A DNA stretch of 64,000 nt from Pseudomonadota bacterium (GTDB taxonomy: Bacteria; Pseudomonadota; Gammaproteobacteria; Burkholderiales; Gallionellaceae), in the NCBI GenBank assembly GCA_021782365.1, contig JAJXVB010000007.1, forward strand, positions 62,001-126,000, written 5' to 3'. Below the pieces are notes generated by a model. The model did no database searches and was not told where the DNA came from. It worked only from the letters and a program-made list of their open reading frames with translations. The translations under genes and the position numbers were made by a program. This document shows positions 7,167-41,339 of this stretch, one piece after another; the stretch's first letter is position 1, and every line of letters begins with the position of its first letter.

Positions 7167-7907
7167 TTATCCGTATATACGGTTATTGTGCAGGCGCCTT
7201 GTGGCCAGTGTCAGGAAGAACGCGGTGAAGAGCATGAAGAATGCCGCATCGCGGCTGTCCAGGAGCCCTGCGTTGAAATTCTGGAAGTGGTACAAGGGCG
7301 AGAACTGGTGCCAGGGTGATGCGGAAGGAGAGGCGATGTCGGCAAGCCATAGCCCTGTCAGAATGGCGACGGTACCCAGGGCCGCGATCACGGGTTGCGC
7401 CGTAAGAGACGAGATGTAGAGGCCGAGCGCGACATAGCTTGAAGTCAGGAGCAGAAGTCCTATGGAGTTCGATAGCAAAAGCCCCGAATCGAGATGCGTT
7501 CCCAGATAGAGCGTGGCTAGCATCAGCGGCAGGATCGCGATCATCGGCAAGAGGAAAATGAGAAGACCTGCGAACTTGCCGATTGCGATCTGCACATCCG
7601 ATGCGGGGGAGGAGAGGAGCAGCGGCAGGGTCTGGTTGCGTCGCTCTTCTGCGATCAGGCGCATCGTGAACATCGGCACCAGCATCATGAGAAGCAGGGC
7701 TGCGGTGTTGAAAAGCGATGCGCCCACGGTGCCGGTCACGCCCGGCGGATTCGCGAGCAGCGCGAGCTGGGGCTGTATCTCGAGAAAGGCCTCCAGTCTC
7801 GTCAGGAAGAACCAGGCAAGGATGAATTGCAGGCCTGCCATCACGAACCAGGTGGATGGGATGGATAAAAGGCTGCGCAATTCTCTCATGGCGATCAGGC
7901 GTATCAT
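7167..7907 (-). CDS. ABC transporter permease (GldF-like)
   Basis: Multi-TM; LFNTAALLLMMLVPMFTMRLIAEERRNQTLPLLLSSP; start MIRLIAMREL inside the ORF. Confidence 0.85.
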   Translation of the reverse strand: MIRLIAMRELRSLLSIPSTWFVMAGLQFILAWFFLTRLEAFLEIQPQLALLANPPGVTGTVGASLFNTAALLLMMLVPMFTMRLIAEERRNQTLPLLLSSPASDVQIAIGKFAGLLIFLLPMIAILPLMLATLYLGTHLDSGLLLSNSIGLLLLTSSYVALGLYISSLTAQPVIAALGTVAILTGLWLADIASPSASPWHQFSPLYHFQNFNAGLLDSRDAAFFMLFTAFFLTLATRRLHNNRIYG

Positions 7908-12030: not shown

Positions 12031-12105
12031 TGGGGAGTCGCCAAGTGGTAAGGCAACGGGTTTTGATCCCGTCATTCGTAGGTTCGATCCCTACCTCCTC
12101 AGCCA
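12031..12105 (+). tRNA. tRNA-Gln (anticodon TTG), CCA encoded
   Basis: Full cloverleaf: TGGGGAG/CTCCTCA acceptor, anticodon arm ACGGG-TTTTGAT-CCCGT, T-arm GTAGG-TTCGATC-CCTAC; between ispE and prs. Confidence 0.97.
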
Positions 12106-35013: not shown

Positions 35014-36039
35014 CTATAGGGTTTGCATGCCGCGGATCGCCTTTGCGCATTCCGAAATCAGTCCGGGGCCGCGGTAGATCAGCCCGCTGTATATCTGGAT
35101 CAGGGATGCGCCGGCCTCGATTTTCTCTGCCGCATCGGCGCCGCTGAGAATTCCGCCCGCGCCTATGATGGGCAGCGCCCCTTGCAGATGGGAGGCCAGC
35201 TTTCTGATGAGCGCGGTGGATTTTTCGCGGACCGGCGCGCCGGATAGCCCGCCCGCCTCGCTGCCATGCAGAAGGTGTTCGACGCCGACACGCGACAGCG
35301 TGGTGTTGGTCGCGATCACGCCGTCCATTTCGTGCTTCATCAAAAGGCCTGCGATCTGCGCGATCTGCTCGTCTTCCATGTCGGGCGCGATCTTGAGCGC
35401 GATGGGCACATGCTTGCCGTGCTTGTCTTCAAGGTTTCTCTGTTCGTTCTTCAGCTGCATCAGCAGATCGTCCAGCGCGTCTTCGTCCTGCAGTTTGCGC
35501 AGATTCTTGGTGTTCGGGGACGAGATGTTGACGGTGACATAGCTTGCATGGGGATAGACGCTGCGCAGGCAGGATAGATAGTCGTCTGAGGCATGCTCGA
35601 TGGGGGTCGTTGCATTCTTGCCGATGTTGATGCCGAGTATGCCCTTGTAGTCAGCGTGCGCGACATTCCGGATCAGCGCATCCACCCCTTCGTTGTTGAA
35701 GCCCATGCGGTTGATGATCGCCTGCGCCTCTGGCAGACGGAATAGCCTGGGCTTCGGATTGCCGGGCTGGGGAAGCGGCGTGATGGTGCCGATCTCGATG
35801 AACCCGAAACCCAGGCTCGCCAGTCCGTCTATGCATTCCCCGTTCTTGTCGAGGCCTGCTGCAAGTCCTACCGGATTCGGGAAGCTGAGCCCCATCACGG
35901 TGCGGGGATCATCGGGGATGGGTTGGGCGATGAGGCGGCTCATGCCCATCCTGTAGAAGGTGTTGAGGCTCTTGAGCGTCAGGTGGTGGGCTGTTTCGGG
36001 CTGGAGCCTGAACAGGGCGGGGCGCAACATGGAATACAT
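35014..36039 (-). CDS. pyrD: Dihydroorotate dehydrogenase (quinone)
   Basis: [43 protein letters not shown]. Confidence 0.97.
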
Positions 36040-37526: not shown

Positions 37527-38969
37527 ATGTTTGGGAAAATATTCGGTAAAAAATCAGATCACCCGATGGCGGATGCCAAGTCTGCGCAAGCCTTGCTGAA
37601 TGATCTTTCAAGGAGCGATCATCTGAAATCGCTTCTTGAATTGACCGACTGGATCGAATCGGTTTCCATCCGTGAAGACTACAAGTTTTCCGACCAGTTG
37701 GCCGTTCTGAATCTGCTCGATGAAACCGCGCAGTCCCATCTCAGGAAGCTGACCTGCGAATATTTCACGCTGCCCGACATGCACGCGTTTCACGGCAACC
37801 GTCTCGGCATGGCTCTGGGCAACTTTTCCCGCTCGATGTGCGATGCCTACTGCCTGATGTTCGATCGCAGCAGCAAGGAAGATGGGGCTGCAACCCTGCT
37901 GGTGACGCGCGCGATGCGGCTGATCTGCGAGAAGCTGAAATACATGGCCGTGAACTATCAGACCCACGACGAGACTGCATGGCGCAATTTTGCAGCGCTA
38001 TATCGGCATGCTGAAACGCACGGGTGCGTGAGCGAGCCGGTGAGCATTTATTCGTCCATTCAGACCACGATCCTGAAGGAGGCAGGGAAACTGATGACAT
38101 GGTATGCCTGCGGCATCACTTCGATCAGCCCGCGCAGCATGCACCTTTCGGAGGTCATCCTCGCCCGGAACAGCGATGCGATTTCGATCGGAAGAGAATC
38201 CGGAAGTCAGGACCTCTGCAGCTTCGATCTTTCCCAGGCACATCCGCCGATGCGCATTCTTCCGGATGCGAAGAGGAGTCCCGAGATGCGCTATGTCAGC
38301 CTCACAGGGATGCAGGCAAGGCTTGAGACCATGATCCGGGTTCTGGAAAAGGATATCGTGCCAGAAGAGTTCAGCCCGGGTTGTCCTTATGCTGCGGAAT
38401 GGGTTCTGGAAGCTGCGAGGCATGTGTTGAATCAGGCGGTTTTTTCTCCGCAGCGCTCGACCAAGAGGCGCGAAATGCAGGCGGATATCTTTGCCGCGTT
38501 TGGCTGCGAGAGCCTGCTGCGCCTGGCACTGGGAAAGAATGTAGATGAGATGCAGATGAGGCTTGAAAACGCGAGCCCCGGCGGTTTCTATGCTGAGCTT
38601 GTCGGAAAAGGCGCGGACAGGGCGCGCGTAGGGCATGTCTTCGGTGTGAAAACGCAAGCCGGCCTTGGCGTGTCGATCGTCAGGCGTCTCGCGCGCGATG
38701 CGGAAGGGCGTCTGCATGTGGGGGCGGAAATTCTGACCGGAAAGGCATCTGTCGTGACGCTTTCGGGAGGCGGGGGGGCGCAGCTCCTGCTGTATTCCGA
38801 GGATGGAATTGCGACGCTCTTGATGCAGGCGGATGTGTTTTCCATGCAGCGCAGCCTGAAGGCTTCTTTTGATGGCAGAAACTATCTGCTGATGCCTGTC
38901 AAGTTGCTTGAATCCGGCCTGGATTACGATCTCGCGAGTTTCCGCGCGATCGAGCAGGAAGAAGAATGA
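37527..38969 (+). CDS. Conserved hypothetical protein, long helical N-terminus with possible PilZ-like C-terminus
   Basis: Intact 480-aa ORF; 3' end is duplicated at 39834-40006. Confidence 0.65.
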
Positions 38970-39016
38970 CTGTGCCGTTTGAAACGGTCAGCCTCCTCCA
39001 AACTCGGGATGCTTCA
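38798..39016 (+). repeat. Direct repeat copy 1 (in place at the 3' end of the 37527..38969 CDS and just beyond)
   Basis: Near-identical to 39834..40052, constant offset 1036 bp; six mismatches counted in the coding part. Confidence 0.9.
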
Positions 39017-39062
39017 TTTTTCTCCATTGTTGTCCGGCGCATTGCGGTGTAGTGCGCGAGAG

Positions 39063-39356
39063 CTACCGCCTCCCACCAGTGTAACTGGGCTTCCTGTGCT
39101 GATGTCGCACTATCAGGATTAGAATGCTGCTCTCGAGGCTTCGATATACGACCGAGTAAGGAAAAACTTTCAGCGGGAATATTCTTCGCTCTTTCGTCGT
39201 TGGCATTCCGAGATCGGGATATTCAATCAGGAGCTTGACGACACGTTCAAATTCTTCGAGGAAACGCTCGGCAACCACAAGGCCGGCTTGTTCTTTGTAA
39301 AAATCCAGAGCGTTGGCAATATCATGTTCCGCTCCAGGGTGGAGCGAGTAGGTCAT
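39063..39356 (-). CDS. RelE/ParE-family toxin
   Basis: YSLHPGAEHDIANALDFYKEQAGLVVAERFLEEFERVVKLLIEYPDLG...RRIFPLKVFPYSVVYR; overlaps the upstream antitoxin by 4 bp. Confidence 0.88.
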   Translation of the reverse strand: MTYSLHPGAEHDIANALDFYKEQAGLVVAERFLEEFERVVKLLIEYPDLGMPTTKERRIFPLKVFPYSVVYRSLESSILILIVRHQHRKPSYTGGRR

Positions 39357-39580
39357 CGCGTAAGTCTTGCTCGAAGCCTGGCAATGGCATCCTGTCCTGA
39401 AACTGCCGGGATTGAACCGGATTTCAGTTCGGCTTCCCTGCGATCAGCTACTTTCACCCAAGCTTCCTCGACTTCGGGATCCGAATCAAGACTGGCGATT
39501 AGCCGTCCAAGCAGGTGTGATCTTTCGACCGGATCCAATTGCAGGACTTCGGCTTCCAGAATTTCCAGGTTTGTGCTCAT
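39353..39580 (-). CDS. Addiction-module antitoxin (Unstab_antitox/TIGR02574-like)
   Basis: MSTNLEILEAEVLQLDPVERSHLLGRLIASLDSDPEVEEAWVKVADRREAELKSG; SD GGAGGTTAGC before the ATG at 39580. Confidence 0.85.
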   Translation of the reverse strand: MSTNLEILEAEVLQLDPVERSHLLGRLIASLDSDPEVEEAWVKVADRREAELKSGSIPAVSGQDAIARLRARLTR

Positions 39581-39801
39581 GCTAACCTCCAATATGGCAA
39601 GTGCTGACGATTTGCAGTTTATCACAGCGATGTGATGCGCACGGTGGCGCGACCAGTTGTGATGTCCAGCAAGGATATAGAAAAAGTTTGCGCATCGTGC
39701 ATCTGGCGGAAGCAAATATCAAGGTCAAACCAGATGAAATAACCTGGCATCCGCAGCGGTCATTTCTGATTTTGCAATTGACAATGCTACCGTTCTATAT
39801 C

Positions 39802-39832
39802 TGACCCTCGACCCAGACCTGACCCTCGACCC
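39802..39832 (+). repeat. Short tandem repeat ctgaccctcgaccc (x2)
   Basis: ctgaccctcgacccagacctgaccctcgaccc directly before the orphan gene end. Confidence 0.8.
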
Positions 39833-39833
39833 G

Positions 39834-40052
39834 CGAGGATGGAATTGCGACGCTCTTGATGCAGGCGGATGTGTTTTTCATGCAGCGCAGCCTGAAGGCT
39901 TCTTTTGATGGCAGAAACTATCTGCTGATGCCGGTCAAGCTTCTTGAATCCGGCCTGGATTACGATCTGGCGAGTTTCCGCGCGATCGAGCAGGAAGAGG
40001 AATGACTGTGCCGTTTGAAACGGTCAGCCTCCTTCAAACCCGGGGTGATTCA
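39834..40052 (+). pseudogene. Orphan 3' fragment of the 37527..38969 gene (direct repeat copy 2)
   Basis: Encodes [56 protein letters not shown] without any upstream ORF. Confidence 0.88.
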
Positions 40053-40228
40053 CCTGCTTCAGGGGCGATTCAAGGTGTCCGGATCGGCGTCGAGCAGGGA
40101 GTCCCACTGCGCGGTGCGCAAATCCGACGACCCATCGAGCTGCGCAACGCGGAATTCGTGCGCGGCCATTGCGCCAACATACCAGAAGCGAGCGGCGAAC
40201 CCGCCCCGGCCGATTCCGGCAACCGCGC

Positions 40229-41110
40229 CTATTCTTCCCCGATCGCGAGCAGCGCCGAGGCGACCACCGCGAGCGCGATGCCCGCGATCTTGAATGGTCC
40301 GGGGATCTGGCCGGCGAGCGCCATCGCGATCAAGGCCGTGAGTAGCGGCGAGGCCGCATTGGTGAGCGCGGAGACGACCATCGCCTTGCCGTCCCGCAGC
40401 GCGTAGACGATCGCGAGCGCTCCCACGGCGTTGAGCAGCTGAATCCCCGCAGAGAGCGGCGGACCGTCGATCCCCCAGTTGATGGACGCGCCCCAGTGCG
40501 TGCGAACGAGCGCGACTGGGACAAGGAGCAGGCCGCCCAACGTCATGTAGAAGAAGATGGCCCCGGTGCTCATCGAAGCATGGGCGATCTTGATGAAGTA
40601 GTTCTGCAGGCCCCACGACACCAGGATAACGAGCGAGAGGAAGAACCAGAGGCCGAAGTGCACCGTGCCACCGCCAGGCGTCCAGTCGTTGAGAAGGGGC
40701 AGGGCGGCCAGCGCCAGCACGATGCCGACCACGCCGATCCGGCCCGTGCGCTCCCCGAGAAATGCCGTGCTCAGCGCGATCGTGACGAGCGGCGAGAGCG
40801 AAATGATCGGGAAAATGAGGTAGGACGGTCCCATCGAAAGCGTCGGGAAGAGGACGATGACCCCGCCTGCGCCGGTGAGGCCGATCGTCAGTCCCAGTGT
40901 AAGGGATCGCGGATCGAGCGGGACCTTCCCGCCTTCGCGGCGCAAAACGAACGCCGCGGGCAGCAGCATGCAGACCGCCCATACGACGTATGTCAGCGTA
41001 TCGGGGAACCCCCGCTGCGCGGGGATGGCGCTCAAGGCGCCCCAGAGACCCCAGGCGACGGTGGTGATCAGCGCATAGCCGAGCCAGCGCCGGCTGCCGG
41101 ACGACGACAT
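40229..41110 (-). CDS. EamA/DMT-superfamily transporter, probably horizontally acquired
   Basis: About ten TM segments, duplicated EamA-like halves; visibly GC-richer than its neighbours; start chosen as MSSSGSRRWLGYALITTVAWGLWG. Confidence 0.85.
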   Translation of the reverse strand: MSSSGSRRWLGYALITTVAWGLWGALSAIPAQRGFPDTLTYVVWAVCMLLPAAFVLRREGGKVPLDPRSLTLGLTIGLTGAGGVIVLFPTLSMGPSYLIFPIISLSPLVTIALSTAFLGERTGRIGVVGIVLALAALPLLNDWTPGGGTVHFGLWFFLSLVILVSWGLQNYFIKIAHASMSTGAIFFYMTLGGLLLVPVALVRTHWGASINWGIDGPPLSAGIQLLNAVGALAIVYALRDGKAMVVSALTNAASPLLTALIAMALAGQIPGPFKIAGIALAVVASALLAIGEE

Positions 41111-41339
41111 TCGCATTCCTCTTGTTGCCCCGGGGTGAATCGCCCCCGATTCTCTAGACACATCCCATTCTCAATAGGATGGCTGCAATGGTATACAAAA
41201 CCGACTTCTCTAGACAATAGCCATGAGGCCGTCCTCTCAATAATCCGAAACTACAATCGCAGGCGTCCTGCAACTAGACGCCGCCTTCTGCGGCAGGCGT
41301 TGATCTGAAAATGAGCGGAAGTTATGCTGCGTCTTTTCC

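Follow-up and report, generated by a model that had tools for sequence, protein, structure and literature searches.

A toxin–antitoxin module of integron cassette ancestry between two copies of a host gene end in a Gallionellaceae genome

Results

The window analysed here is the whole 64-kb stretch of DNA, and it comes from a metagenome-derived genome of 32 contigs that is 93.7% complete. It carries an intact host gene of 480 amino acids (37527..38969, + strand), for which profile searches returned no Pfam or NCBIfam family and whose last 172 nt belong to a direct repeat. A repeat search of the window gave one 219-nt family, at 38798–39016 and 39834–40052, with copies that are ~95% identical (95.4% by self-blast); the coordinates of the earlier note on this DNA, and its offset of 1036, were recovered by the repeat search. 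Copy 1 (38798..39016, + strand) consists of the 3′ end of the gene, a terminator-like hairpin (38970..38991, + strand; fold z −2.28), which the alignment also places in the relatives L003 and L004, and an IS terminus. Copy 2 (39834..40052, + strand) holds an orphan gene end with the same hairpin and IS terminus and has mostly ancestral bases. The ~47 bp that the earlier note counted beyond the coding sequence resolve into the hairpin and a 27-nt IS1416-like terminus. The copies differ at ten positions, six of them coding and four non-coding, the latter all within the last 27 nt. Re-alignment reproduced the previous count for the coding part, namely five synonymous differences and one S→F change, which lies on the orphan side.

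The 817-nt segment between the repeats gave family matches for toxin–antitoxin (TA) genes only, and no recombinase gene was among these matches. The toxin, of ParE type and 97 amino acids long (39063..39356, − strand), matches PF05016 (ParE_toxin) at E=3e-12 with 47.4 bits against a cut-off of 23, and ParE2 (PDB 8c26, E=2.3e-6) is the solved structure closest to it in sequence. The co-directional antitoxin (75 amino acids; 39353..39580, − strand) precedes the toxin gene, overlaps it by 4 nt and matches PF09720 (Unstab_antitox) at E=4.7e-12 with 46.2 bits; its match to TIGR02574 (6e-5) falls under the cut-off of that model. Since both Pfam matches exceed the gathering score, the complete ParE/RelE-type pair recognised earlier between the copies stands as an intact operon, which is predicted to be a type II TA system with a ParE-type toxin. 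Both genes show a dN/dS of ~0.2 (mostly 0.15–0.3 against ungapped homologues), indicating purifying selection. Further copies of the module were not found elsewhere in the genome, and plasmids gave no nucleotide match to it. The segment ends in a 158-nt spacer (39676..39833) that has no match in the family genomes and terminates in two copies of TGACCCTCGACCC. This motif was considered as a genome-wide repeat and dismissed, as it occurs exactly only in the two copies here.

The TA DNA was matched in 27 of 159 family genomes, a few of the matches being short only, and most matches begin at the stop codon of the toxin and reach a position slightly upstream of the antitoxin. These homologues are 76–87% identical, and many of them lie between attC sites. 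Using an attC covariance model built from 12 flanks of TA homologues, we found attC on both sides of several of them (L053, L056, L058, L059, L061 and L064) at 37–86 bits, scores that are to be read with the training set in mind, as most of these sites also belonged to it. As an independent check, three attC sites at 46–50 bits were detected in an integron integrase (intI) locus outside the training set (L076); the model also detects sites in L091 and L105. In one family genome (G054), the TA cassette has an ORF for an integron integrase 1.1 kb away. A search of the window with an nhmmer profile made from seven cassettes flanked by attC gave a match at 39053..39675 (− strand, envelope from 39029) with 611 bits, which breaks off immediately after the R″ box of an attC that has been lost. 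A remnant of that box is seen by alignment and profile at 39664..39670 (+ strand; GTCCAGC, against GTCCAAC in L053), the region reading GATGTCCAGC in the window and GATGTCCAAC in L053, and nothing else of this attC is left. The left edge of the cassette is less certain, with weak similarity at that end. No attC was found at the module edges by the covariance model run with filters off over positions 36000–64000. A hidden attC was likewise rejected as a candidate, as the model gave no match and the single-strand folds of the right edge were no better than those of shuffles.

The TA module is shown to be a former integron cassette that has lost its attC, an ancestry that is absent from the earlier note's reading. 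Having lost the attC, the module should no longer be mobile by integron integrase. The ancestry also bears on a likeness drawn previously, to elements that restore a 3′ end and use the gene end as their attachment site: the homologues are attC-bounded integron cassettes, and the view of the module as such an element is not supported. Duplication of target genes is not known from integron integrase. A tRNA-type attachment site was also set aside, the only tRNA genes of the window being at 12031 and 19107. We considered further whether an integron integrase put the TA cassette into a secondary, attG-like chromosomal site, with the duplication of the gene end a separate matter. Such insertion into attG is documented (Loot et al. 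2024, as cited in PMC11023631 and PMC12444791), and here a GTTG at 39029 lies close to the start of the cassette homology, with an attC R″ box at its end. However, this account is unlikely, as no attC is left in the window, the similarity at the left end is weak, the genome has no intI and the repeat is left unexplained.

A possible home of the cassette emerges from comparison with relatives. The host protein is 81%, 70% and 68% identical in amino acids to its counterparts in L003, L004 and L005, respectively, and each of these carries a single gene end. An ancestral repeat without the TA module, which had been named in advance as a finding that would speak against recombination, is thereby excluded. 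In L004 and L005 a convergent esterase gene directly follows the host gene. In L003 (genome G020) the two are separated by a ynfA-like gene and a weak attC (7457–7523, 21 bits), and the intergenic spot between gene and esterase thus varies among the relatives. In the genome of the window, the esterase is found on contig C21, followed by seven attC sites that reach near the contig end (L091 3266–7847 and L103 637–718) and form an array without an integrase, which is oriented with respect to gene and esterase as the TA cassette is. The cassettes of this array contain small ORFs that include, judged by eye only, HicA-like, RelE-like and HigA-like proteins. No intI above the cut-off was found in this 93.7% complete genome (best 100.9 bits against 265), as compared with 58 of 101 family genomes that have one; the earlier remark that no integrase is visible therefore holds for the segment and, as regards intI, for the genome. 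On the simplest reading, the TA pair would once have been part of an array between the gene and the esterase that was later broken up.

The right ends of both repeat copies match an IS1416-like terminus (IS3 family), the IS end being confirmed from the inverted repeats of two plasmid copies and from an IS on contig C22. The terminal inverted repeat remnant is decayed in copy 1 (38990..39016, − strand; 23/27 to the C22 IS end) and well preserved in the orphan copy (40026..40052, − strand; 25/27), and no other positions of the 64 kb match this IS end as well as 40052 and 39016 do. The 27-nt terminus is common to both copies and absent from the relatives, so the two copies are closest to each other and split after the IS event. 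The earlier note had listed such mutual closeness as a sign of simple tandem duplication. The sequences immediately beyond the two termini are unlike each other, pointing to one more rearrangement next to the IS. On the orphan side, two IS-end motifs that face outward, at 40072 and 41136, enclose an EamA transporter segment (40073–41135), and the synteny with relatives is broken at this segment. Its gene is 95% identical to the copy in G072 and 92% identical to that in G020, above the identity of the flanking backbone (~76–82% and 85–88%, respectively), and the segment was therefore likely transferred, as judged from these identities. The DUF445 gene past EamA matches G020, where it sits on another contig; its immediate ancestral left neighbour, sought as a reciprocal breakpoint, was not found in the window's genome. 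The listed start of the EamA ORF, at 41161, falls beyond the IS end.

We used the relatives and the IS ends to polarise the differences between the copies. Copy 1 carries eight derived bases and the orphan one, with one position ambiguous; the orphan thus has the ancestral base at eight of the nine polarisable differences, and the derived coding changes of copy 1 are all synonymous. A crossover between repeat positions 45 and 100 would place all nine derived bases on one molecule. The asymmetry bears on a tandem duplication in a single genome, by which the 1036-bp unit 38798–39833 would have been doubled through a short-homology joint (39833/38798) and the second TA then lost in a deletion that starts exactly at the IS terminus (40052/40053) and brings further IS ends and EamA beside the orphan. 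This account has in its favour that the copies are closest to each other and have the IS terminus in common, that a repeat boundary exactly at an IS terminus is typical of IS-adjacent deletions, and that the EamA segment lies between IS-end motifs where synteny breaks. However, it needs two events, a second TA remnant after the orphan is not seen, and the orphan would be expected to equal or exceed the gene copy in neutral changes, against about one versus eight observed. For an orphan evolving neutrally ever since a common duplication, so few changes have a P of 0.0003–0.003, in a test that assumes equal mutation rates and draws on few sites, and we regard tandem duplication as rather unlikely. 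An 8:1 or 9:0 asymmetry is also unexpected with equal clocks in two alleles (P ~0.002–0.05, and 0.02–0.09 in the test used for the duplication). The scarcity of neutral change in the orphan favours a recent joining of two functional alleles over an old tandem duplication. The previous view that the copies are diverged alleles and not a fresh tandem duplication thus gains from the nearly unchanged orphan and loses from the IS terminus that makes the copies closest relatives.

The joint between the spacer and the orphan (39833/39834) has almost no shared sequence, and no such joint was found in viral contigs. The scarcity of common sequence speaks against an assembly artefact in which a metagenome contig fused two strain variants of one locus, as a k-mer assembler would have had no overlap to follow; moreover, unique sequence ties one side of the insert to the gene. 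The fragmented, 93.7% complete assembly, repeats of 5% divergence as they come from strain mixtures, and the frequency of misassembly in IS-rich regions are points for such an artefact, which we nonetheless hold to be quite improbable.

Discussion

We infer that two alleles of one gene end, both of which carried a residual IS terminus beforehand, met at this locus, most likely through homologous recombination within that gene end; we give this account about an even chance. In this process, a small incoming molecule carrying a gene end, an IS terminus and the TA pair would have recombined with the resident gene end, either as a circle of some 1036 bp entering through one crossover or, if linear, through homologous pairing on its left side and an illegitimate junction at 39833/39834. 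The 3′ end brought in would then complete the intact gene, and the resident one would have been displaced to become the orphan. A former cassette without attC would thereby be left beside 37527–38969, near the probable home of the genome's cassette array. The earlier note had likewise proposed that the module arrived with its own version of the gene end and left the old 3′ end behind. The ancestral bases of the orphan fit this proposal; its direction is one that we infer, because no sibling strain with an empty site was found, the three congeners compared having a different downstream neighbour. Against a joining of two alleles stand the mutual closeness of the copies and their common IS terminus, which a duplication in a single lineage would give equally well.

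The anatomy of the locus, with a segment between repeats and a partial gene duplicate flanking foreign DNA, is that of single-crossover integration or homology-facilitated illegitimate recombination: almost all of the homology is on one side, and the gene keeps its frame with its end present twice. In E. coli, single crossovers yielded partial gene duplications of 109–950 bp, and one-sided homologous plus illegitimate recombination usually involves 3–10 bp of microhomology (PMC3240628). Those processes are known from experiments, whereas here they are deduced from anatomy. The locus also resembles islands inserted by tyrosine recombinases at gene 3′ ends, in that an end is restored on one side and a displaced end lies on the other, but it has no recombinase gene, its repeat is 219 nt long with 5% divergence, and the homologues of its module are attC cassettes. 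With the sedentary chromosomal integrons of the Vibrio cholerae type it has in common a small type II TA operon that includes an upstream region of its own, a ParE-type toxin and attC-flanked homologues; in contrast to these, the window copy has no attC and lies outside any array, in a genome with no detected integrase. The seven attC sites beside the esterase on C21, with no detectable intI, are akin to a CALIN (cluster of attC sites lacking integron integrase), whereas the locus itself has no attC site. We therefore view the locus as a well-preserved and instructive example of ordinary, known recombination processes, and not as a new kind of element.

The TA pair, a cassette in relatives, persists here after the loss of its attC, with purifying selection across homologues, and it adjoins what look like relics of an array site. 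The segment could be lost if one repeat recombined with the other, a deletion that the TA pair, if active, would counter-select. The locus thus bears on how TA cassettes may stabilise surrounding DNA against deletion between repeats, and on the spread of cassettes by homologous recombination without an integrase. A broader scenario, in which TA cassettes leave integrons in small circles together with neighbouring chromosomal DNA and re-enter strains by homologous recombination, is speculative and probably wrong; if true, the TA pair would lock a new direct repeat against deletion, and cassettes would have an integrase-free route of spread.

Two further homologues have unusual surroundings. In L060 (G012:C9), repeats of ~295 bp that are 95.6% identical (1156–1450 and 2116–2404) bracket a further copy of the TA cassette seen in the window, and each repeat is formed by an attC end followed by an apparent transposase 3′ end, an arrangement that parallels the window but is built from an IS instead of a host gene. 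In the right flank of L068, upstream of the antitoxin, the attC beside the TA homologue is apparently interrupted by a short, AT-rich insertion, its ends inverted (CTGTGAAAGTATTC...GAATACTTTCACGG), which resembles a small non-autonomous element.
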